NCBI RefSeq assembly: GCF_006159205.1
Contig: NZ_CP040812.1
Location: forward strand, 1,550,001-1,614,000
Direction: 5' to 3'
Length of the DNA stretch: 64,000 nt
Origin: Antarcticibacterium flavum
GTDB lineage: Bacteria > Bacteroidota > Bacteroidia > Flavobacteriales > Flavobacteriaceae
Below, piece by piece: positions 130-11,475 of this stretch. The translations under genes were made by a program, and so were the position numbers. Position 1 is the first letter of the stretch. Every line of letters starts with the position of its first letter. The notes under the pieces were generated by a model that saw only the letters and a list, made by a program, of their open reading frames with translations, was not told the origin of the DNA and did not search any database.

Positions 130-1692
130 ATGACCCAATCCAAGCAACAACTGGAACAACAACTCTGGAATATCGCCAACACGCTCCGCGGAAAAATGGG
201 GGCCGATGAATTTCGGGATTATATATTAGGATTTATATTTTATAAGTACCTGAGCAGGAAGATGGAACTTCACGCCAACAAGATCCTAAAACCTGATAAT
301 TTAACTTTCCACGAACTGGAAGGCCACCCGCAGGAAAAAGAATATCTCGAAGCGGTGAAAGATGATGCTCTGGAGCACCTGGGATATTTCCTGAAACCGT
401 CTGAACTTTTTAGCGAACTCGCCCGTCGTGGGAACGGGAACGGAAAAAGCAAATTCATTCTCGGCGACCTTGCAAAGGTGCTTACCAACATTGAGCAAAG
501 CACAATGGGTAGCGAAAGTGAGGAAGATTTCGGAAATCTTTTTGAAGACCTGGACCTTACAAGCAGCAAGCTTGGAAAGACTGAAGAAGCCAAAAACGAA
601 CTTATCGTAAAAGTACTCACTCACCTGGACCAGGTGGATTTTGACCTGGAGAATACAGAGAGTGACGTCTTGGGTGATGCTTATGAATACCTGATTGGTA
701 AATTCGCTTCCGGTGCCGGAAAAAAGGCCGGGGAGTTTTATACGCCTCAACAGGTAAGTAAGATCCTGGCGAAGCTGGTAACGATTGAAAAGGAGCAGAT
801 CAAAAATGTATACGATCCCACCTGCGGCTCGGGTTCCCTCCTGCTCCGTGTTTCAAAGGAAGCAAATGTAGGAGCATTTTTTGGACAGGAGAGCAATCCT
901 ACCACTTATAACCTATGCAGGATGAATATGATCATGCACGATGTGCATTACAAACGATTTGATATCCACAACGAGGACACGCTGGAGAATCCTTCCCCGC
1001 AGCATCTGGAGGAAAAGTTTGAAGCCATAGTTGCCAATCCTCCTTTCTCTGCCAACTGGAGCGCGAGTCCGCTGTTTATGAGTGATGACCGCTTCTCCCC
1101 TTACGGAAAGCTCGCACCAAAGACTAAAGCTGACTTTGCCTTTGTGCAGCATATGGTACACCAGCTTTCCAATACAGGAACTATAGCTTGTGTGTTACCT
1201 CACGGGGTATTATTTCGCGGCGCGGCGGAAGGACATATTCGTAAATACCTGATAAAAGACAAAAATTACCTGGACGCGGTAATAGGTTTACCCTCCAATA
1301 TTTTCTATGGAACTTCAATCCCTACGTGTATCCTGGTGCTGAAGAAAAACAGGGAGCACAGCAAAGACATTTTGTTCATTGACAGCAGCGAACACTATGA
1401 AAAGATAAAAACCCAGAATTACCTGCGGGAAGAGGATGTGGAGAAGATCATTGACACCTATAAGAACAGAACCACCATTGATAAATACAGCTTTGTTGCA
1501 TCACTAGACGAAGTAAAGGAAAATGATTATAACCTGAACATCCCCCGCTATGTAGATACTTTTGAGGAAGAAGAGCCAGTGGATCTTGATGCTGTTTCTG
1601 CTGAATTAAAAGGGCTGAAAAATGATATTAAAACTACAGATGCTGAAATAGCCGATTTCTGTAACCAATTAGGAATTGAACAACCTTTTTAA
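130..1692 (+). CDS. hsdM: Type I restriction-modification system, methyltransferase subunit HsdM
   Basis: This 520-residue protein is the N6-adenine methyltransferase subunit of a type I restriction-modification complex; with HsdS it methylates the recognition site, and with HsdR it forms the restriction enzyme. The N-terminal third is the HsdM_N helical domain. The SAM-binding motif DPTCGSG lies at residues 229-235 and the catalytic motif NPPF at 303-306, both as expected for gamma-type N6-adenine methylases. Length is normal for the family. hsdS starts one base after its stop codon. I see no convincing promoter in the 65 bases upstream, so it may be co-transcribed with the gene that ends at 65. 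Confidence 0.96.
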   Translation: MTQSKQQLEQQLWNIANTLRGKMGADEFRDYILGFIFYKYLSRKMELHANKILKPDNLTFHELEGHPQEKEYLEAVKDDALEHLGYFLKPSELFSELARRGNGNGKSKFILGDLAKVLTNIEQSTMGSESEEDFGNLFEDLDLTSSKLGKTEEAKNELIVKVLTHLDQVDFDLENTESDVLGDAYEYLIGKFASGAGKKAGEFYTPQQVSKILAKLVTIEKEQIKNVYDPTCGSGSLLLRVSKEANVGAFFGQESNPTTYNLCRMNMIMHDVHYKRFDIHNEDTLENPSPQHLEEKFEAIVANPPFSANWSASPLFMSDDRFSPYGKLAPKTKADFAFVQHMVHQLSNTGTIACVLPHGVLFRGAAEGHIRKYLIKDKNYLDAVIGLPSNIFYGTSIPTCILVLKKNREHSKDILFIDSSEHYEKIKTQNYLREEDVEKIIDTYKNRTTIDKYSFVASLDEVKENDYNLNIPRYVDTFEEEEPVDLDAVSAELKGLKNDIKTTDAEIADFCNQLGIEQPF

Positions 1693-1693
1693 G

Positions 1694-2851
1694 ATGGAGA
1701 CAGAAGTAGAAAGAAATAGGGAACAAAAAATAGCTCCACAATTAAGATTTAGGGAATTTGAAAGTAATTGGATTAAAATTCCACTGGGGAAAATTATAAA
1801 GTCCATTTCTTCTGGAAAAACCAAGCCGGAAGATAATGGTAAATATCCAGTTTTTGGTTCGACAGGAATAATAGGAAATTGTTCATATTTCACTCACGAT
1901 GGCGAATTTATCTTAATTGCACGTGTAGGAGCTAATGCAGGTAAAATTCAAAGAGTTATAGGAAAATTCTCTGTAACAGATAATACTTTGGTGCTTATCC
2001 CTGAAGAAAATAAGCTCCTTCCAAAATTTGCTGAATTATTTCTTATGCATTTCAACTTAAATAAATTAATTTTCGGTTCTGGTCAACCTCTAATTACCGG
2101 CGGTTTAATTAAATCCATTAAAATTATTTTACCATCCCTCCCAGAGCAACAAAAAATCACATCCTTCTTTTCGGTCGTAAATATTAAGCTCCAACAGGTG
2201 ACCCGTAAAAAAGAATTGCTGGAAACTTATAAAAAAGGTGTGATGCAGCAGTTGTTTTCGCAGGATATAAGGTTTAAGGATGAGGATGGGAAGGATTTTC
2301 CGGAGTGGAAATGGGTAAATGGTAATAAACTGTTTGATAATATTTCTGATAAAAATCACAATTCAGATTTGCCCATTTTAGCTATTACTCAAGATCAAGG
2401 TGCAATTCCAAGGGACTTGATCAATTATAAAATCACTGTAACTAAACAAAGTGTAGAAAGTTATAAAGTTGTTCAAAAAGGGGATTTCGTGATAAGCTTA
2501 AGGACCTTTCAAGGTGGAATTGAATATTCTGATTACCACGGAATTTGCAGTCCGGCATATATAGTCTTAAGAGCGAATTCTAAAAATGTAGATAAAACTT
2601 TTTATAAGTTGTACTTAAAAACCCCATTCTACATCAAACAACTACAGAAAAACCTGGAAGGGATTAGAGATGGTAAAATGATTAGCTATAAATATTTTTC
2701 AGAAATAAAATTACCTTTTCCTTCAATTGAAGAACAACAAAAAATAGCGAAATTTTTATCTGCCATTGATGAAAAAATAGAAGCAGTTTCGCAGCAAAAT
2801 GAAAAATCGCAAAGCTTTAAAAAAGGGCTGTTGCAACAAATGTTTGTATGA
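1694..2851 (+). CDS. hsdS: Type I restriction-modification system, specificity subunit HsdS
   Basis: This subunit selects the DNA target. It has the usual two-fold layout: a first target recognition domain over about residues 10-165, a conserved helical spacer containing LPEQQKI, a second recognition domain over about 205-350, and a second spacer with IEEQQKIAKFL at the C-terminus. I chose the ATG at 1694, one base after the hsdM stop; a TTG at 1676 in the same frame would overlap hsdM by 17 bases. The gene is clearly more AT-rich than hsdM, which is common for specificity genes that exchange recognition domains. Confidence 0.93.
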   Translation: METEVERNREQKIAPQLRFREFESNWIKIPLGKIIKSISSGKTKPEDNGKYPVFGSTGIIGNCSYFTHDGEFILIARVGANAGKIQRVIGKFSVTDNTLVLIPEENKLLPKFAELFLMHFNLNKLIFGSGQPLITGGLIKSIKIILPSLPEQQKITSFFSVVNIKLQQVTRKKELLETYKKGVMQQLFSQDIRFKDEDGKDFPEWKWVNGNKLFDNISDKNHNSDLPILAITQDQGAIPRDLINYKITVTKQSVESYKVVQKGDFVISLRTFQGGIEYSDYHGICSPAYIVLRANSKNVDKTFYKLYLKTPFYIKQLQKNLEGIRDGKMISYKYFSEIKLPFPSIEEQQKIAKFLSAIDEKIEAVSQQNEKSQSFKKGLLQQMFV

Positions 2852-2894: not shown

Positions 2895-2915
2895 AAGTCG
2901 TGAAAATTACGACTT
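2895..2915. promoter_or_regulatory. Perfect 7-bp inverted repeat upstream of the ncRNA promoter
   Basis: AAGTCGT and ACGACTT form a perfect inverted repeat with a 7-base spacer, ending 6 bases before the TAnnTTTG element. The position suits an operator or part of the -33 region. That function is inferred from position only. Confidence 0.4.
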
Positions 2916-2921
2916 ATGTTG

Positions 2922-2929
2922 TATATTTG
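2922..2929 (+). promoter_or_regulatory. Bacteroidota-type -7 promoter element TATATTTG
   Basis: TATATTTG matches the Bacteroidota -7 consensus TAnnTTTG exactly and lies 71 bases after the hsdS stop. It would start transcription at about 2935, just before the structured RNA. A clear -33 TTG is not seen at the usual spacing. Confidence 0.6.
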
Positions 2930-2934
2930 CTGCA

Positions 2935-3041
2935 ACAGTACACACCACGCTACCCATAAGAACAGCGTCCCAGGGTGTGTCTTTTGCTTTTAAGAGATTA
3001 TATTTAAACCCCACAAGGTCTGGCCTTGCGGGGTTTTTTAT
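2935..3041 (+). ncRNA. Structured non-coding RNA upstream of an Abi_2 gene (abiF-RNA-like)
   Basis: A roughly 105-base transcript is implied by a perfect TAnnTTTG at 2922-2929 and an intrinsic terminator at 3007-3039. It contains an extended hairpin: ACACACC (2940-2946) pairs with GGTGTGT (2974-2980), and inside that ACGCT (2947-2951) pairs with AGCGT (2964-2968), leaving a 12-base loop and a 5-base bulge. The RNA ends 12 bases before the ATG of an Abi_2 gene. A family of structured RNAs upstream of Abi_2/AbiF genes (the abiF RNA motif) has been reported, and this one has the same position and architecture. The 66-codon open frame across it has no known-protein features. The exact 5' end is an estimate. 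Confidence 0.62.
3007..3039 (+). terminator. Intrinsic terminator between the ncRNA and the Abi_2 gene
   Basis: AACCCC-A-CAAGG pairs with CCTTG-C-GGGGTT around a 5-base loop, with one A-C mismatch, and runs into six T residues. It ends 13 bases before the Abi_2 ATG, so the RNA can end separately from the protein gene. Confidence 0.8.
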
Positions 3042-3052
3042 TTTATAAATCT

Positions 3053-3964
3053 ATGTTTGTTAAAAGAGCATTTACAATAAAGGAACAAATTGAGCAGCTT
3101 AAATCCCGGGGGTTAATTATTAACCCTGAGGATGGGGCTGAACATTTCCTTTCCCATATTAGCTACTACAGGCTTGGGGAATACTGGTATGTAATGCAGG
3201 ATGATAAAGTTGCACATACCTTCAAACCAAATAGCAAGTTTGCAGATGTTATCGCTCTTTACAACTTTGACCGGGAATTACGAATCCTGTTATTCGATGT
3301 CATCGAAAAATTAGAAATAAGCCTTCGAACCAAAATGATATACCATCTTTCGCATGAGTTTGATGCCTGGTGGTTTCAAAATTTTGATTTGTTTCAGGAT
3401 AGCAGGGCTTTAGTTAAGACTCTGGCAAACCTGGAAGAAGAAATAAACCGCACGAAAGATATCACTATTAAATCTCACCTCAAGAAACATAAAGACGATC
3501 TACGATTTCCTCCTGCCTGGAAATCTTTAGAGCAAACAAGTTTGGGTGCCTTGTCCAAATTATATGGTAATTTGAAGAACAATATAAAGTCCAAGGACAT
3601 TATTGCGCAGGAATATGGAGCGGTAAATCATACCTACCTCCCAAGCTGGCTACAAAGTATTTCACAGATTAGAAATTATTGTGCTCATCATTCAAGATTA
3701 TGGAACAAAAATTTACCCGGAGCTCCAAAACTTCTTTCCAAACCTCCTTTTGAATGGATTTCTGATGTACCGAAACAGCACGAATTTCTTTATTTGTATG
3801 TTCACCTCTGTTTGATGAAGTATATGCTCAATGTAGTACAACCTGAAAATCATTTTACTGAAAAGCTAAGTGCACTTTTTGAAAAATATCCCAATGTTGA
3901 TCCTAACGCACTGGGGATGAAAACTGACTGGGAGAAAGAACCGCTTTGGGTAAATAGAAATTAA
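3053..3964 (+). CDS. Abi_2 (AbiD/AbiF) family abortive-infection protein, HEPN RNase-like
   Basis: This 303-residue protein belongs to the Abi_2 family, whose members abort phage infection and carry a HEPN-type RNase fold. The N-terminus has the family pattern HISYYRLGEYWY near residues 33-44. The HEPN catalytic motif R-x4-H is RNYCAH at residues 207-212, followed by another His. I start at the ATG at 3053; an upstream TTG at 3026 lies inside the terminator hairpin. The gene sits between hsdS and hsdR on the same strand, directly behind a small structured RNA, which suggests a toxin held in check by that RNA. The next gene begins two bases after its stop. The RNA-antitoxin role is inference. 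Confidence 0.88.
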   Translation: MFVKRAFTIKEQIEQLKSRGLIINPEDGAEHFLSHISYYRLGEYWYVMQDDKVAHTFKPNSKFADVIALYNFDRELRILLFDVIEKLEISLRTKMIYHLSHEFDAWWFQNFDLFQDSRALVKTLANLEEEINRTKDITIKSHLKKHKDDLRFPPAWKSLEQTSLGALSKLYGNLKNNIKSKDIIAQEYGAVNHTYLPSWLQSISQIRNYCAHHSRLWNKNLPGAPKLLSKPPFEWISDVPKQHEFLYLYVHLCLMKYMLNVVQPENHFTEKLSALFEKYPNVDPNALGMKTDWEKEPLWVNRN

Positions 3965-3966
3965 AA

Positions 3967-4515
3967 ATGAAAGCAGAATTTTTAAATAACGAAATCTGGA
4001 TTCTCACATTTGGTGGTGGTTTTCAACGAGCCAATGTTTACAAAGAAAAAAAGGTAACAACCGAAGTTAGAAAAGAATTCCGGCAGGCTTTGAGAGATCA
4101 AATAGAAAAACTTGTTGAAGAGCAATATCATAAAACTGTAACTGAGGAAAAGCATCTAGAAAACATTCATTCTTTAGTAATCTTTTCAAGAAATACAAAA
4201 TTTGGAGTAGCTCCTATTGAAATTAATTTTGGAGTAGCTCAAAAACTTCTCAATCTCTATCTTAAATATTCCTGGTGCGTTGGAAAAATAAAGACAGTAC
4301 CGGTACATTTTCCAGTAGATCGATTAATACAGGGAAAACTAAATGAAGAAGCTAAAGATTCAGGAATACCTAAAATTGAATTAAAAGCCTGGACTCAATT
4401 TGAAAATGAAGAAGACTATCAAAAAGTTATTGAATTCGCTGAAACCGTGAGGGCTAAAAATTATCCCGATAAGTCTTTAGCAGAAATGGAATTAGAAATA
4501 TTTACACGAAGATAA
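3967..4515 (+). CDS. Hypothetical protein in the restriction operon
   Basis: This 182-residue protein matches no family that I recognise. It is soluble by composition, with no signal peptide or membrane segment. The N-terminal stretch is beta-rich with a GGGF turn, followed by a basic, helical, charged segment over about residues 28-65. The stop codon is immediately followed by the ATG of the PD-(D/E)XK nuclease gene, and the Abi_2 stop lies 2 bases upstream, so the three genes form a tight unit. Base composition is AT-rich like hsdS. It could be a partner or immunity factor of the downstream nuclease, but nothing in the sequence proves that. Confidence 0.75.
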   Translation: MKAEFLNNEIWILTFGGGFQRANVYKEKKVTTEVRKEFRQALRDQIEKLVEEQYHKTVTEEKHLENIHSLVIFSRNTKFGVAPIEINFGVAQKLLNLYLKYSWCVGKIKTVPVHFPVDRLIQGKLNEEAKDSGIPKIELKAWTQFENEEDYQKVIEFAETVRAKNYPDKSLAEMELEIFTRR

Positions 4516-5745
4516 ATGGAAAATACTAGAAATTGTCTTAAGTTAATTAGCGAAGCTTCCCGTGTTCTTGAGCATCAAAAGGAAATCTCCACTTTAAAAG
4601 GAGAAAACTTCAACATCTTTTCCATCCTTAAAATGGAATCTAAAGAAAATGCAACTCATTCTGCTTTCTTAGGAGAATTATTGGATCCCGAAGGCTCCCA
4701 TAATTTCGGCAGTACATTTCTAAAAATTTTCTTTGATGTTATTGATGTAAAACACATTGACCTGGAATCTACTAAGGTAAAATTAGAAAGATATGTGGGA
4801 GAGAGGAATGATAATGAAAAAATAGGCGGTAGAATCGATATATATATTTGGGATAAAAACAATTCCTCAATTTGTATCGAGAATAAAATTTATGCCCCTG
4901 ATCAGAATGTACAAATTGAACGATATTGCAATCATAATAAAGATAAGAACCAAGTGTTTTATCTTACTCTTGAAGGAGAAGAGCCAGGAAAAGAGAGCCG
5001 GGGAGATTTGAAACCTGGAGAAAATTTTCATCTTTTGAGTTATGCCGATGATATAGTAGATTGGTTAACGGCATGTGCTAAAGAAGCCTGTAATCTTCCA
5101 ATTATTCGAGAGAGTATCCAGCAGTATATCATACTCATCAAAAAATTAACTAACCAACTTACCGATAATAAAATGGCAGCGGAAATCCAAAAGCTTATTG
5201 CTGAAAATTACACCACGACTAAAACCCTTGCAGCAAACTTAAAAACAGTTGAATTAGAATATACTAAACTCTTTTTAAATGAAATAAAAGGTGAGCTCGA
5301 AAAAGAATTACAGGATGGATGGTCAGTAGAGGTCTATGATGATTTGGAAGAAGCCTGGACAGGCCTTTATATTAGTCATAAGGATTGGCCGGAAAATGTA
5401 TATGTAAAACTTGAAGGACAGTCAAAGGTTCCCTGGAGTGATAGTATTTATGGAATTATTGGAAATGAAAAGGTTTGTAATCGTAAACAACTAAATGATG
5501 AACTGTCTAATGTAGAATTTCTACAGGAAGGCTTTAAGTCGAATAAGGTGTGGCCGTTTTATAAAACTGTCCTTCATTTCAGCAATGATGAGGCACGTGC
5601 TGTTTTATTTATTGAGAATAAAAGAAAAGAACTTGTTTTAGATCTCTCTGAAAAATTTCTGGAATTGGCAAAAGCCTGTGAAGAGCCTTTGAAAAAAGTG
5701 CATCTAACGAATAATGTAAATGGCACTCAAGTTTCTTTAAACTAA
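4516..5745 (+). CDS. PD-(D/E)XK nuclease superfamily protein (PDDEXK_4 type)
   Basis: The N-terminal 200 residues fit the PDDEXK_4 pattern: an early segment NIFSILKMESKENATHSAFL near residues 36-55, an acidic residue D108 in GRIDIYI, and E122-N-K124 in CIENKIYA, followed by a Gln-containing helix. These are the metal-binding and catalytic positions of a PD-(D/E)XK nuclease. The C-terminal half (about 230-409) is of unknown fold and may bind a ligand or nucleic acid. The gene starts directly after the stop of the unknown gene at 3967 and ends 11 bases before hsdR. Proteins of this family are often found in defence islands; the target is unknown. Confidence 0.82.
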   Translation: MENTRNCLKLISEASRVLEHQKEISTLKGENFNIFSILKMESKENATHSAFLGELLDPEGSHNFGSTFLKIFFDVIDVKHIDLESTKVKLERYVGERNDNEKIGGRIDIYIWDKNNSSICIENKIYAPDQNVQIERYCNHNKDKNQVFYLTLEGEEPGKESRGDLKPGENFHLLSYADDIVDWLTACAKEACNLPIIRESIQQYIILIKKLTNQLTDNKMAAEIQKLIAENYTTTKTLAANLKTVELEYTKLFLNEIKGELEKELQDGWSVEVYDDLEEAWTGLYISHKDWPENVYVKLEGQSKVPWSDSIYGIIGNEKVCNRKQLNDELSNVEFLQEGFKSNKVWPFYKTVLHFSNDEARAVLFIENKRKELVLDLSEKFLELAKACEEPLKKVHLTNNVNGTQVSLN

Positions 5746-5756
5746 ATAAAAAGGAT

Positions 5757-8638
5757 TTGAGCTACCAATCTGAAGCAGTATTAGAAAACAACCTGGTCAA
5801 ACAGCTGGAGACCCAGGGCTACGAAAGAGTGCAGGTGAATTCTGAGGCTTCGGTATTGGCGAATCTTAAAAGTCAGCTGGAGGCTTTTAACAACACTTCT
5901 TTTTCTGAAAAGGAATTCGGCAGTATTTTAAATCATCTCGCCAAAGGCAATGTCTTTGAAAAAGGAAAAACCCTGCGCGGACGGTACCAGCTCACCCGGG
6001 ACAATGAAGATTCTTTTTATGTTCGATTTTTAATAATGAGGATTGGACAAAGAATTTGTTCCAGGTCACCAACCAGATCGCCCAGGAAGGAACTTACAAA
6101 AACCGGTATGATGTCACGCTGCTGGTAAATGGTTTGCCGCTGGTGCAAATCGAATTAAAGAGACGCGGACTCGAACTCAAAGAAGCTTTTAAACAAATAA
6201 ACCGCTATAAGCGCCACTCCTACTGGAATAATTACGGGCTGTTCAATTTTGTGCAGCTGTTTGTAATAAGTAACGGAGTGGACACGAAATACTTTTCCAA
6301 CAATCCGCTGCAAACCCTCACTTTTAAGCAGACCTTTTTCTGGGCCGACAGGCAGAACAGAAACATAAAAGAACTTACAGATTTTACCACTGCATTTCTA
6401 AACCCGGATCACCTGGGGAAAATACTTGCTAAGTATATTGTTTTTAACGAGACCCATAAAATTTTGATGGTGCTTCGCCCCTATCAGTTCTATGCGGCAG
6501 AGGCGATAATCAATCAGGTGAAGACCTCCGGGGACAATGCCTACATCTGGCACACCACCGGTTCCGGAAAAACATTGACATCCTTTAAAGCGAGTCAGTT
6601 GCTGATGGACCTGCCGGAGGTGCATAAAGTGGTTTTTGTGGTGGACAGGAAGGATCTGGATTACCAAACGATGAAGGAATTCAACAGCTTCAAGAAAGAC
6701 TCTGTTGATGTTACAGATAATACCTTTTCCCTGGTAAAGCAATTTAGCGATGACACCAAACTCATCCTAACAACCATTCAGAAGCTGAACAATGCCATCT
6801 CCCCCGGCCGTTATCAGTCTAAAATGGACCATTTGCAGGACAAGCGTATTGTCTTCATTTTTGATGAATGCCACCGCAGTCAGTTTGGGGATACGCATAA
6901 AAAGATCACCAGTTTCTTTAATAATTCTCAGCTGTTCGGCTTTACCGGAACACCAATCTTTGCAGATAATGCAGCGAAGAATGACCTGGGAAAACGAACT
7001 ACAAAAGACCTTTTTGGAGAGTGCCTGCACAAATATGTGATCACAGATGCTATCAGGGATCAGAATGTTTTAAAGTTCAGCATAGAATATATTGGCAGGT
7101 ATAAGCAAAAGAGCAATACGTTTATAGATATTGAAGTAGAAGACATAGATACCCGGGAAGTTCTTGACAGCTCTAAAAGGCTGGAAAAGATCACTGATTA
7201 TATCATCAAATATCACGACACCAAGACCAAGAACAGGGAATACTCCTCCATTTTCGCAGTGAGCAGCATTCCAAACCTTATCACCTATTACGAGCATTTT
7301 CAACGGAAGAAAGCTGCCGGGGAGCACGATCTAAGAGTGGCCACCATTTTCACTTATGGAGCCAACGAAGAAGATGAGGAAGCGCAGGGCTTGCTGCCCG
7401 ATAACCAGCTAATGGCAGCCGATGCACTTCCGGTATATAAAACCAGCCACACCCGGGAAAAGCTGGATGAGTTTATTGAAGATTACAACGCGATGTATAA
7501 CACCGCTTTCTCCACCCGGGACAGCAAACAATTTGAGGGATATTTTAAAGACATCAGCAAACGCCTGAAAGAGCGGGAGAAAGTCGGTTTTAAAGACGAA
7601 GATCGCCTGGATATTATCCTGGTGGTCAATATGTTGCTTACGGGATTTGATGCCAAGAAAGTGAACACGTTGTACGTAGACAAAAACCTGCGCCACCACG
7701 GACTTATCCAGGCCTTTTCAAGGACCAACAGGATCCTGGACGAGAAGAAATCCCAGGGAGAGATCCTTTCCTTTAGAAACCTGAAAAAAGCCACTGATGA
7801 AGCCATAGCGCTATTTTCAAACAAAGACGCCAAAGAAGACATCCTCCTCCCCGATTACGAAGTGATCACAGAGAAATTTTCTGAAGCTTTTATTGACCTG
7901 CTCAAGATCGCACCCACAGTAAAAAGCGTGGACAATTTACCCTCGGAAGAAGAGGAACTGGAATTCGTGCAGGCTTTTCGCGCCCTGATAAGAGCAAAGA
8001 ATGTTTTAACCTCCTTTGCCGATTTCAGCTGGGATGATGTGCCAATGGATGAGCAGACCTTTGAAGATTACAAAAGCAAATACCTGGATCTTTACGAGAA
8101 AGCCAAAGGCGATCACCAGAAGAACAAAACCTCCATCCTTGACGATGTGGATTTTGAACTGGAATTGATCCACCGGGACGAGGTGAATGTGGCTTACATT
8201 CTAAAACTACTCGCGGGGCTGAAACAAGCCAAAGGCAAAAATGCCGCCCAGCAGAAAAAGCAAATCCTGGATATGCTCGCCGGAGATGTAGAACTGCGTA
8301 GCAAACGGGAATTGATAGAAAAATTCATAGAAGAGCACCTGCCAAAGATCACCGACATAGATTCCATCCCCGATGAATTTGAACAATACTGGAGCGACCA
8401 GCGAGTGCTCGCCCTTGGGAATTTATGTGAAGAGGAAAACCTGGACAAGGCACAATTCAAATCATTAATAGACGCCTACATCTATAACGAACACGAACCC
8501 CTGCGGGATGAAATTTTCAAGTGTCTGGATAACCGCCCCAGCGTGCTAAAAGCACGGGAGATTGGGGAAAGGATTATTAATAAGATGAAGGTGTTTGTGG
8601 AGGTGTTTGTGAGGGGGTTGGGGCCTAGTGAGAAATAG
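5757..8638 (+). pseudogene. hsdR: Type I restriction subunit HsdR, with a -1 frameshift near 6030
   Basis: The two frames 5757-6128 and 6056-8638 together make a full HsdR. The N-terminal nuclease domain (D and ELK in the segment YDVTLLVNGLPLVQIELK) is followed by a superfamily 2 motor with HTTGSGKT (Walker A) and DECHRSQ (motif II), then a helical C-terminus. Family sequences continue as FFNNEDW at the break, which needs one more T in the T5 run at 6027-6031. As written, the product stops at 6128. The first codon is TTG at 5757 in a context (MSYQSEA) typical of an HsdR N-terminus. Either this is a true inactivation or phase switch, or a base-calling error in the homopolymer. Confidence 0.88.
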
Positions 8639-8707
8639 GACACTCACAAGTAAATATAAAAAATTCCAAAACTATTTCAGTACATTTATTTACTAAAAAA
8701 AAAATTG

Positions 8708-10057
8708 ATGAAAATTGAATTGAGAAACTTTGGACCTATAGATAGATTACAATTTGATCTAAACAAAGATTTGCATCTTATATTTGGTCAAAATGCTATC
8801 GGAAAATCATATGCAACTTATGGTATATATTGTTTGATTAAAAACATTAAAAATAAATCTTTTAGGAATAGATATTTCTACTACAGAGATTTGGATACCA
8901 ATGATTTTCACAAATTTATTAAAAACACATTAAAAAATAGAAAGAAGCAACAAAGGATAGATCTATCATTAAAATACAAAACCTTAATAGAAAATGAATT
9001 AAGGTTAATTATTTTAAGTGGTTTACAAAATTCACTTCGGAACACTTTTTCATCCTTGCATAATCTTAAAAATAGATTTACAAATAAAAACTTTGAATTT
9101 ATTATTTATTTATCAGACTCTGAAAAAATAAGAATTTTTGCAGATGACGAGGGAACTTTAGATTTAGAATATTTATCTAAAAAAAATAAGTTAGAATTCA
9201 TACTAAAGGATACTAAAACCACAAAATTTTCTCTTTACAGTGATGATAAAAAGCAATTTGGAAAGGGAAAAGAAGATGATTTTTTAATAGAATTTGTGAG
9301 ATTTTCAATTGGAAATGTAGAGAATATTCTAAAGCGATTAGATCATGACATTAGAGATATATATTATTTACCTGCTAGCAGATCTGGTCTATACCAAGCC
9401 TTAAGCGCCTTTACTCCAATGATTGCGGAATTAACCCAAAATCGATTTTTCATGCAAAATAAATCGATCGAACTTCCATCTTTATCTGAACCCTTATCTG
9501 ACTATTTCATTGATCTTTCTACAGTGGATAAAAAGAATAGCAACAAAGAGTTTACCGAAGTAATTAATTTTCTTGAAAAAGAAATATTAAAAGGGGCTGT
9601 AAAGTATGATGAAAAGACAAAAAGGATTCTTTATTTACCCCAAAATGTCAATCTTGAATTGAACTTATCTGAAGCTTCTTCTATGGTAGCAGAACTATCT
9701 CCGTTAGTTCTTTATTTTAAGCACATTCTAAACTATAAATATTCATCTTTAAATCCTCAGGATCGTTTTTTCTTTGATGGATATTACCAAAGAAGATCAG
9801 CTCCCCGCGGTTATGATATTCTTTTTGTAGAAGAACCAGAAGCACATTTGCATCCAGAGATACAGGTTAAACTTATTGATCTGTTCGTGCAACTTACAAA
9901 TCAGAAGCTTAAAATATTTATTACCTCTCACAGTAATTATATGTTTAATAAGTTGAACAATCTTCTTATTAAAAAAGATATAAAGGAAAATAAGGTAAAA
10001 GTTTATCATTTGGTGCACACTAAAGAGGGACCAGGGATAAGAAAGATATGCAGGTGA
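8708..10057 (+). CDS. AAA/SMC-like ATPase (OLD-type), C-terminus probably frameshifted
   Basis: An ATPase of the ABC/SMC-like AAA class. Walker A is GQNAIGKS at residues 27-34, close to the N-terminus. The Walker B motif ILFVEEPE lies at about 371-378, followed by HLHPE, and the switch histidine is H408 in TSHS. The ORF stops at 10057, but the next frame continues for 35 good codons to a TAA at 10150-10152 if one base is added near 10040. That end would overlap the next gene by 11 bases, a normal operon junction. I start at ATG 8708 rather than TTG 8705. The gene is far more AT-rich than hsdR, suggesting separate acquisition. Together with the following nuclease-like gene it resembles a two-gene defence module. 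Confidence 0.8.
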   Translation: MKIELRNFGPIDRLQFDLNKDLHLIFGQNAIGKSYATYGIYCLIKNIKNKSFRNRYFYYRDLDTNDFHKFIKNTLKNRKKQQRIDLSLKYKTLIENELRLIILSGLQNSLRNTFSSLHNLKNRFTNKNFEFIIYLSDSEKIRIFADDEGTLDLEYLSKKNKLEFILKDTKTTKFSLYSDDKKQFGKGKEDDFLIEFVRFSIGNVENILKRLDHDIRDIYYLPASRSGLYQALSAFTPMIAELTQNRFFMQNKSIELPSLSEPLSDYFIDLSTVDKKNSNKEFTEVINFLEKEILKGAVKYDEKTKRILYLPQNVNLELNLSEASSMVAELSPLVLYFKHILNYKYSSLNPQDRFFFDGYYQRRSAPRGYDILFVEEPEAHLHPEIQVKLIDLFVQLTNQKLKIFITSHSNYMFNKLNNLLIKKDIKENKVKVYHLVHTKEGPGIRKICR

Positions 10058-10141
10058 CCCAGGAGGGAATAAACGATGAAAATTTTCAAGACGTTTCAGA
10101 GAGATTATATTTTGAAAGATTAAACTTTTTAGAAGGATTAA

Positions 10142-10651
10142 ATGATAAATAAAATAGAAAAACATGAGGTGCTTTCATCATTTATTGAAGAGACTTGTTC
10201 TGAAAATGGAGTTTGTGTTTCTTTTGATGATTCTATTTCTGAAGACTCATATGTAATAATAAAGGTGGATAAATTTTATAATTCTTTAAATATTGAATTC
10301 AGACCTCCCTCAGTGGACTGCTTAATAGTTCGGGAATGTATAAATCGTGGTCATGGTTTAACCCTAGTCGAATTAAAGAAAGCCAACTCCTCCAAGGATT
10401 TTGACATGAAAAATATTGAGCAGAAATTTGAAACTACCCTTTCTGACTTTATTAGCGATAAATTTGCTGACCCACTCTTAATTAATTATAATGATGTAAA
10501 ACTTTTCTTTGTTTCCAATAAAGAGATTTACAAAAGAGATCTAGGTTTAAAAATGGAAGCGTTAATTAATATACGGTTTAAATTCAATGACAAAACCTTG
10601 ATGATTCGCCCACTAATGCCCACCCCGACAATTAAAAATTGTTATGGATAA
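10142..10651 (+). CDS. Small PD-(D/E)XK-like protein, partner of the ATPase
   Basis: This 169-residue protein is not a member of a family that I can name. It does contain a clear D-x(n)-E-x-K signature: D59 in PPSVDCLIV and E77-L-K79 in LTLVELKK, spaced and flanked by hydrophobic strands as in PD-(D/E)XK nucleases. The ATG overlaps the restored reading frame of the upstream ATPase, so the two were probably translated as a coupled pair. Composition is AT-rich like the ATPase. ATPase plus nuclease pairs (for example Septu or Gabija) are established anti-phage layouts, but this nuclease is not HNH and I see no UvrD-like helicase, so it is not one of those two as described. Confidence 0.65.
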   Translation: MINKIEKHEVLSSFIEETCSENGVCVSFDDSISEDSYVIIKVDKFYNSLNIEFRPPSVDCLIVRECINRGHGLTLVELKKANSSKDFDMKNIEQKFETTLSDFISDKFADPLLINYNDVKLFFVSNKEIYKRDLGLKMEALINIRFKFNDKTLMIRPLMPTPTIKNCYG

Positions 10652-10758
10652 ACTGAAATGACCCTATGAAAAAACCCTTTTCCGAACTTTAAATATTTTG
10701 CTCCACCCTCGTGTATGGTAAAAAAAACTAATTTCTTATATTGACTAATCTTTTTTTA

Positions 10759-11475
10759 TTATTTTAATTTTGTTAGGATCTTATAAAAAGATGCACTTCC
10801 CAAGTTGTTTTTAGACAAAATGGGATTACGATAACTTTTTGTAATATATTTATTTGAATATGCTTTCAATTCAGGAATAGCTTCTTCCCAATAGCTTTTG
10901 CTTCTGGGTATTATAAGGATAGCATCTCTTTGAATTGCCTTCCTAACAAGTTCAAAATTATAATTCTGGCTAGGCAAATAAGAACTGAAACCTTCCTCTT
11001 TAAGTAGTCTTTTGTAAAGCGGTTTATATTTGGTGGAATGATATGGAAAGAATTGAACTTTAGCTATTTTATGAGCAACTATTTCATCGCTAGTCGCATC
11101 TATTAATGGTTTTAACTTTTTAAACCAGTAGTCAGATTTTTGAATATACTCTTCCTCCAGGCAAAACAATGGCAGTTTCGGGTAAGGAAGCTGGTGCTGT
11201 ATTTGCAGCATCCACCAATTCTCATAAGTTTTATAATAATTAGTTCCCTCAGCATCTTCATGTTTGTCATATCCAGGATTTAACATCAGGATTATTACAG
11301 GAGCATTATGAACATCACCCATAAAAGGGGCAGGGAAAATGTTGTCATGAATTTTGTATTCATCGGTAACTTTTGAATTGAACTTTTCTATTATTGAAAG
11401 TTCTGATTCTAAGACAAAGTTTTTCCTATGTGAGTTAGCTGCTAAAGTGAGCCAGGGGTTTTGGGAGGAATTCAT
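10759..11475 (-). CDS. Hypothetical protein, possibly uracil-DNA-glycosylase-like fold
   Basis: This 238-residue soluble protein is transcribed toward the defence genes. The segment VIILMLNPGYD near residues 54-64 is a hydrophobic strand ending in an N-P-G-[YF] turn, reminiscent of glycosylase-fold proteins (an active-site loop after a beta strand). A second strand-like piece, DAILIIPRSKSYW, lies near 189-201. I cannot confirm the fold. A weak promoter TATATTTA lies 16 bases upstream of the ATG. The 107 bases between it and the nuclease-like gene hold nothing clear. Confidence 0.6.
   Translation of the reverse strand: MNSSQNPWLTLAANSHRKNFVLESELSIIEKFNSKVTDEYKIHDNIFPAPFMGDVHNAPVIILMLNPGYDKHEDAEGTNYYKTYENWWMLQIQHQLPYPKLPLFCLEEEYIQKSDYWFKKLKPLIDATSDEIVAHKIAKVQFFPYHSTKYKPLYKRLLKEEGFSSYLPSQNYNFELVRKAIQRDAILIIPRSKSYWEEAIPELKAYSNKYITKSYRNPILSKNNLGSASFYKILTKLK

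Follow-up and report, generated by a model that had tools for sequence, protein, structure and literature searches.

The closest described counterparts of the locus reported here are AbiF toxins that are paired with an RNA antitoxin. The complex of PbAbiF with its RNA AbiFr (PDB 8vz6) is described as dimeric, each monomer binding one RNA, and the RNA as an antitoxin that has an inhibitory single-stranded bulge (PMC12373285, PMC12737573); the nucleotides of this bulge are reported to inhibit AbiF (PMC12737573), and a double change of R210 and H215 is reported to inactivate PbAbiF (PMC12373285). The literature on homologues describes toxicity, neutralization by RNA both in cis and in trans, and RNA-protein binding (among others PMC12373285). 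Here we describe an abiF gene and its upstream structured RNA at positions 2922–3964 of a 64,000-nucleotide (nt) stretch of Antarcticibacterium flavum contig NZ_CP040812.1 (hereafter the window), from a genome that is a single 4.35-Mb contig with one abiF. We consider it likely that this is an AbiF toxin-antitoxin unit silenced by its own RNA and carried as cargo in a restriction locus, and that phages hold stand-alone copies of the RNA. The unit comprises the following features:

2922..2929, plus strand: TAnnTTTG promoter element of the RNA (presumed Bacteroidota -7 type), TATATTTG
2934..2985, plus strand: AbiF-associated structured RNA (52-position model R1), consisting of the hairpin at 2940–2980 and the first U's of the U tract
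3006..3041, plus strand: intrinsic terminator between the RNA and abiF, from its fold; absent from most relatives
3053..3964, plus strand: abiF (Abi_2/HEPN, 303 amino acids, RNYCAH at residues 207–212), from PF07751, PADLOC AbiD and AF2/Foldseek 8vz6

The AbiF protein begins at the ATG at 3053 and contains Abi_2 as its only Pfam domain (PF07751, E 2.7e-53), and it also matches the AbiD model of PADLOC (6.8e-74). Residues 207–212, RNYCAH, have the R-N-x-x-x-H form of a HEPN motif, as had been noted in a first-pass annotation made from the DNA alone. An AF2 monomer model of AbiF has a mean predicted local distance difference test score (pLDDT) of 92.7, and the sole PDB fold match found by Foldseek at E≤0.001 is 8vz6, 'PbAbiF dimer bound to ncRNA' (TM 0.90, E 3.9e-20, 33% identity across the fold match), with R207 and H212 aligned to the PbAbiF residues R210 and H215. 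The two systems share the Abi_2/HEPN catalytic motif and the fold; this likeness is one of protein.

Upstream of the gene, TATATTTG at 2922–2929 is a perfect fit to TAnnTTTG, which we take to be the Bacteroidota -7 consensus. Of 36 distinct loci, counting the window, 35 have this element, already marked in the first-pass annotation, within the 16 nt that precede the RNA, and 32 have it exactly 12 nt before the RNA, against a background per 16-nt window of 0.3% in the 64-kb sequence and 4% in the upstream DNA of the loci. The RNA is about 52 nt long and its two-part hairpin at 2940–2980 (41 nt) folds as had been described, with an outer stem of 7 bp, a 5-nt bulge on the 3' side, an inner stem of 5 bp and a 12-nt loop; the folding energy is -14.1 kcal/mol, although the z-score is only -1.9. 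A U-rich tract lies immediately 3' of the RNA in 35/35 loci. The terminator that had been proposed is real in the window (hairpin 3006–3036 plus T run, -19.3 kcal/mol, z -4.28), but it is not a family-wide feature, a comparable stable hairpin before a T run following the RNA in only 9 of 35 loci, the window counted. A stricter hairpin criterion, giving 3/35, was set aside because a single mismatch made it miss the window's own terminator. An inverted repeat, AAGTCGTGAAAATTACGACTT, at 2895–2915 overlaps or precedes the RNA promoter, and other palindromes stand at the same place in relatives L002, L008 and L036, as judged by eye; these repeats are a possible operator.

Relatives were found by protein among 397 genomes of the window's family (39 matched), 395 genomes of the phylum (44 matched, E≤1e-10) and also in named genomes, which gave 19 loci. 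The 21 RNAs behind model R1, of which 20 are distinct, include the window RNA, and R1 scores it at 80.3 bits; in the underlying alignment (A1) the outer stem of row L019 is out of register, and this row was retained in the counts and in R1. Standard pairs fill 97.5% of 239 pair cells, double-sided changes occur at 5/12 pairs, and none of 500 shuffles reaches the covariation score, which bears out the covariation looked for since the first pass. In the outer helix 4/7 pairs show double-sided changes and 100% of cells are paired, and when the partners are slid by 1–3 columns pairing over both helices falls from 97.5% to 21–50%. Within this sample the RNAs range from Flavobacteriaceae to Saprospiraceae and other Bacteroidota. 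The window unit is of a known kind, the AbiF RNA-antitoxin systems, having the Abi_2/HEPN motif, the PbAbiF fold and a conserved upstream structured RNA; what is new, judged by sequence, is an RNA subfamily outside the coverage of the Rfam abiF model, RF03085.

The RNA and the protein keep constant company. A tree of AbiF was drawn from 82 loci in which the AbiF match covers some 190 residues or more, leaving out near-duplicates and anything shorter; the broken abiF genes of G388, G209 and G376 and other fragments lie outside it. The tree divides into an RNA clade of 74 rows and a sister clade of 8 rows, and the motif R[NHD]...H is present in 74/74 and 8/8 of them respectively, one match, RHFGFH, being perhaps spurious. 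R1 is found on the same strand 11–135 nt upstream of abiF in 61 of the 74 RNA-clade rows, among them L187, in which the AbiF match begins only at residue 55. RF03085 scores above its cut-off in four other rows (L076, L166, L181, L184) and below it in four more (L072, L075, L077, L169), and a similar hairpin is seen by eye only in three (L073, L185, L188). Contig ends cut off two rows (L039, L186), so that an upstream RNA is present in 72/72 testable RNA-clade rows (61 by R1, 8 by RF03085, 3 by eye), and no RNA-clade abiF without an RNA was seen among them. Neither model matched upstream of the 8 sister-clade genes (L079–L081, L083–L085, L126, L127) or at three further loci (L293–L295) whose proteins resemble a sister-clade protein more than they do the window's. 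Both RNA types stand in tandem upstream of abiF at L048 and L067 (the same locus as L019), the second hairpin being recognized by eye, and, by both models, in tandem before hsdR at L103, which has no abiF.

Copies of the RNA also occur in viruses. Searching IMG/VR records with exact patterns of the RNA core gave 34 viral stretches with a first pattern and 7 with a second (41 in total), while two further patterns gave no matches. R1 detects all 41 RNAs (41–80 bits), and the window's 30-nt core is letter-identical in 15 of these stretches. A profile search of the 41 whole records found AbiF in one (G808) and in none of the other 40. In bacteria abiF lies downstream of 21 of 25 R1 hits, compared with a single one of the 41 in viruses (Fisher p 3e-12), and among exact-pattern matches the counts are 14/15 and 1/41 (p 4e-11). 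T4-type Gp23 capsid proteins are encoded in 5/41 of the viral records.

The pattern GCCTCTTNACAATGCNCAAAT retrieved 53 viral stretches with a second type of the RNA. None of the 53 contains an AbiF match, and PF07751 is absent from all 50 whole records tested (L279, L280 and L282 stand outside the whole-record test); the outer stem of some of these matches is unconvincing, and such matches may have arisen by chance or be decayed. By BLAST the second type is found in the isolated Acinetobacter phage Acj61 (Straboviridae), which has the same length, 164,093 bases, as the IMG/VR record L275. There a hypothetical gene and a putative gene for a GIY-YIG homing endonuclease flank the RNA, which stands some 1.9 kb beyond the tRNA array and shares its strand. 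In the Roseobacter phage CRP-143 (L292, Autographiviridae) it occupies 3001–3045, between the scaffold and capsid genes, and no tRNA is annotated in the 6 kb around it. Plasmids searched with the Acj61-type RNA gave one Phocaeicola record, which has no annotation; an AbiF match is present in 36/437 plasmid records (Acinetobacter plasmids).

Many of the viral RNAs of the first type adjoin tRNA genes. In 16 of the 40 AbiF-less records no more than 20 nt separate the start of the RNA from a tRNA 3' end, the tRNAs being 11 tRNA-Thr(UGU), 2 Pro, 1 Arg, 1 Met and 1 Ile, whereas 919 of 80,000 random positions in the same stretches (1.15%) are so placed; counted by clusters of near-identical neighborhoods the figure is 10/23 (p 4e-14). 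At L203 and L227 tRNAs abut the RNA on both sides. This placement would also be expected if the phage copies were processing or stability elements of tRNA arrays, or hitch-hikers copied with tRNA genes, and the RNAs that follow an apparent tRNA 3' half (L193, L204, L212 and L213, by eye) or lack a U tract of their own (several) fit such a role. We nonetheless regard this explanation as unlikely. The RNA is not next to any detected tRNA in 24/40 records (13/23 clusters), and in the cultured phages Acj61 and CRP-143 the second type occupies intergenic gaps at a distance from tRNAs. In the bulge and the loop the letters are shared with AbiF-linked RNAs, and there is covariation in the outer stem.

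That covariation was seen in an alignment of 24 of the 40 viral RNAs (23 distinct), from which 8 near-copies, 2 that are cut off and 6 of the second pattern were excluded. Double-sided changes are present in 4/7 outer pairs, at positions left free by the search pattern, and 0/500 shuffles reach the covariation score. With partners slid by +2 there are also 4 such pairs, but these comprise 7 cells rather than 18, with pairing at 35% rather than 99%. The 5' leader letters, which lie outside what the pattern requires, are largely kept as well. The compensatory changes argue for maintenance of the viral RNAs and against the view that they are left over from abiF modules that prophages have lost, or belong to host DNA wrongly filed as viral. 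IMG/VR includes prophages and some false viruses, and a promoter-like TAnnTTTG stands upstream of the RNA in L200, L226 and L229, which have no abiF, and in L224, which has one; both points speak for such an origin. The T4-type Gp23 genes, the large tRNA arrays of several records (up to 21 tRNA genes) and the occurrence in Acj61, an isolated member of the Straboviridae, make this origin improbable.

On balance we favor, with some reserve, the view that diverse tailed phages use a stand-alone AbiF antitoxin RNA, often placed right after a tRNA (notably tRNA-Thr UGU), as a widespread counter-defense against the toxin family that is the supposed ancestor of Cas13. We read the phage RNAs as antitoxin mimics. 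The tested precedent is the pseudo-ToxI of phage phiTE, which too is a phage RNA that resembles a type III antitoxin and comes without a toxin (PMC3475682). Its action against ToxIN is demonstrated by experiment (PMC3475682), whereas the AbiF-type hairpin, known here from sequence, recurs in many viruses and often in tRNA arrays; the RNA is without a toxin gene in 40/41 and 50/50 records of the two types, mostly fragments. The RNA anti-CRISPRs are likewise solitary copies of a defense RNA in viral genomes, but they are described as mimics of CRISPR repeats directed against Cas proteins, not as antitoxins (PMC10651486). An abiF sRNA has been reported in the cyanophage S-CREM1 and called probably functional in infection, with no role against AbiF named in the part of the article that we cite (PMC9964418), and in the open-licence literature, outside which most subscription journals lie, we found no paper on phage abiF RNAs as counter-defense. 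If this view holds, it would reveal phages under pressure from AbiF and explain RNA elements inside phage tRNA arrays, and the phage copies would be a natural set of RNA variants from which to learn how AbiF is held off.

In the bacterial genomes the RNA can outlast the toxin. An R1 scan of the 397-genome sample gave hits in 33 genomes at E≤0.1, of which 8 under 26 bits were treated as noise; the 25 counted all reach 30 bits, with abiF downstream in 21 and not in 4. Genome G346 keeps the promoter and the RNA (71.9 bits) while AbiF is reduced to a 17-residue C-terminal match (E 0.03). G174 has no abiF; just before its hsdR stand, in tandem, an RNA of the window type (70.1 bits) and a hairpin of the RF03085 type, which at 30.4 bits falls below the cut-off. 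At G016:C90 there is an apparent abiF stump, judged by eye only, and in G050 a weak R1 hit (31.2 bits) with no visible abiF remnant is perhaps decayed or false. At loci L151 and L152 a second RNA precedes the first by 570–580 nt, and the interval contains no AbiF match; in G376 an RF03085-like hairpin (20.1 bits) precedes an abiF fragment. Retention of the RNA after loss of the toxin is the pattern that an antitoxin predicts.

It is also what tells against the RNA being a cis-acting leader, an attenuator that sets abiF transcription and has no antitoxin role in trans. The layout would suit a leader well enough, the RNA lying between promoter and abiF, with its U-rich tract in every locus and, in the window, a strong terminator after it. 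A leader would hardly be so well kept in G346 and G174 or recur alone in phages, and the C. difficile homologue is reported to work in cis and in trans and to bind the protein (PMC12373285), so that we give this explanation little credence. The alternative offered in the first-pass annotation, that the RNA is the antitoxin, is well supported at the level of sequence by the homology to 8vz6, the constant pairing of RNA and AbiF and the abiF-loss loci that keep the RNA, together with the C. difficile pair AbiFCd-RCd22. That pair has the same order of promoter, RNA, terminator and abiF, and differs in that RCd22 has two RF03085 motifs and belongs to a prophage lysis module, whereas in the window a single, larger hairpin stands within a restriction locus (for RCd22, PMC12373285).

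Several results weigh against the reading of an RNA-silenced AbiF unit with stand-alone phage copies. The window RNA gives no match to RF03085 even at E≤10 (cut-off 37 bits), and RF03085 was rejected as its family; the covariance search suggested at the first pass came out negative in this respect. The broken abiF genes of G388 (L071) and G209 (L082) have no R1 hit within the 19 kb around each. On the viral side, the records are mostly fragments, in which a missing match is no proof that abiF is absent, and the search pattern itself imposes the conservation of the viral RNA core. The window RNA has no match at E≤1 in a collection of named phages, and a cultured relative, Flavobacterium phage immuto_2-6A, shows nothing above 17.6 bits in 149.8 of its 160.4 kb. 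The capsid neighbors are mixed: the G811 capsid comes closest to Flavobacterium phages (55.4%); for the G781 capsid the best match is Microcystis phage Mel-JY01 (58.5%), followed by an uncultured phage (53.8%) and by Flavobacterium phages (53.2%); and no match spans 80% of the G779 capsid. As to RF03085, the two RNAs are alike in having an outer stem, a short inner stem, a 3' bulge and a place upstream of abiF, and a single locus, L136, fits R1 (35.2 bits) and RF03085 (34.0 bits, under the 37-bit cut-off) at one and the same place. Because L136 matches both, the R1-type and RF03085-type RNAs look like the ends of one family.

We read the window unit, within the AbiF RNA-antitoxin systems, as a type III-like toxin-antitoxin pair. 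A single promoter would give a short and abundant RNA ending mostly at its own U tract or at the terminator, and read-through transcription would supply the abiF mRNA. The AbiF dimer would be a HEPN ribonuclease, toxic to the cell unless neutralized by the RNA, which when bound would keep the ribonuclease off, with the 3' bulge probably at the active site; by analogy, we infer that the conserved 5-nt bulge of the window RNA is the counterpart of the inhibitory bulge of AbiFr. Phage infection would upset the balance, AbiF would then cut RNA, and the infection would be aborted. Tailed phages that carry the same RNA without a toxin, often in tRNA arrays, could use it as a stand-alone antitoxin to silence AbiF. 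A practical consequence is that an RNA subfamily missed by the public abiF model makes Bacteroidota AbiF systems findable and their antitoxins testable.

The unit lies in a type I restriction locus, in which the other genes are:

130..1692, plus strand: hsdM, context (TIGR00497, PF02384)
1694..2851, plus strand: hsdS, context (PF01420)
3967..4515, plus strand: cargo gene of 182 amino acids with no Pfam match; relatives in the same slot in L056, L088 and L094
4516..5745, plus strand: cargo gene for a PDDEXK_4 nuclease (PADLOC PDC-S26); relatives in the same slot in L056, L088 and L090
5757..8638, plus strand: hsdR, in two overlapping frames (5757–6128 and 6056–8638)

The placement of abiF between hsdS and hsdR, as first described, holds as a position, but two genes separate abiF from hsdR and the hsdR frame is broken in a T run near 6030, whereas the RNA and abiF of the window are intact. 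Relative L050 has an hsdR that reads through in a single frame; the break in the window may be a true mutation or a sequencing error.

Of 79 HsdR positions found, the 46 with at least 55% identity were examined; the others are one fragment, G323:C11, and 32 with no more than 46% identity. In 40 of the 46 loci the hsdS-hsdR gap contains one or more open reading frames (ORFs) of at least 90 codons, and in 8 it contains abiF, these being the window and 7 more in its family; the survey proposed at the first pass does find Abi_2 in this slot, as it does at L157 in another family. AbiF forms the largest cargo cluster (8 proteins); the next comprises 6, and both members tested from it are Fic. Among the remaining clusters, judged by their representatives only, are GIY-YIG, pentapeptide, RhuM-Fic, DUF3800, DUF4268, KAP, STAND and 23S-IVP genes. 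At L036, L037 and L040 hsdR is directly downstream of abiF with no hsdS match upstream on that strand, and these were counted as in the slot on hsdR alone; L067, with a weak 23% HsdR match downstream, and L070, where abiF comes just after hsdR, were not counted. Of 68 RNA-clade rows with informative flanks, 12 are in or beside the slot and 56 outside it. The flanks were assessed by tblastn with the Hsd proteins of the window as queries, and remote type I systems may have escaped this search. On the AbiF tree the slot label (12/76 informative rows) changes 6 times, at least 5 by starred branches, so the linkage of abiF to hsd is recurrent and not obligatory, and the slot was probably entered repeatedly by abiF. 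Taking many unrelated genes and being entered repeatedly, the gap is a general, repeatedly used cargo site, in which the AbiF-RNA unit would act independently.

PrrC joins an ATPase-like domain to an anticodon-nuclease domain, and the first-pass annotation likened the locus to hsd-prrC. That AbiF is guarded by the Hsd complex, with damage to HsdR setting it free, is very improbable and a PrrC-like coupling was rejected, for although abiF lies between hsdS and hsdR repeatedly and hsdR is directly downstream in three loci, most RNA-clade genes are elsewhere, the slot houses many unrelated genes, the window's hsdR is frame-broken and Pfam sees neither PrrC-type domain in AbiF. Closer in arrangement are the RRDM island, with the toxin-antitoxin system DarTG2 in the hsdS-hsdR gap (PMC12255303), and the rlo (R-linked) genes of C. 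jejuni, which lie in the same gap (PMC5183652), although the genes and the phyla are different in both cases, and PMC12255303 contains none of the terms abi_2, abiF and abiD.

The 182-amino-acid gene and the PDDEXK_4 nuclease gene (3967–5745) are likely a two-gene cargo system, relatives of both being found in the slot of L056 and L088. Beyond hsdR, at 8705–11475, are an AAA_15 ATPase gene (8705–10057), an ORF (10142–10651) and, on the minus strand at 10759–11475, a match to the Brig1 glycosylase model with a score below its cut-off; the hsd locus may be part of a larger defense region that includes these neighbors. Farther along the window, three DUF805-type RNAs are present on the plus strand, one matching RF02914 (33052–33084) and two matching RF03081 (33929–33997 and 35238–35308).

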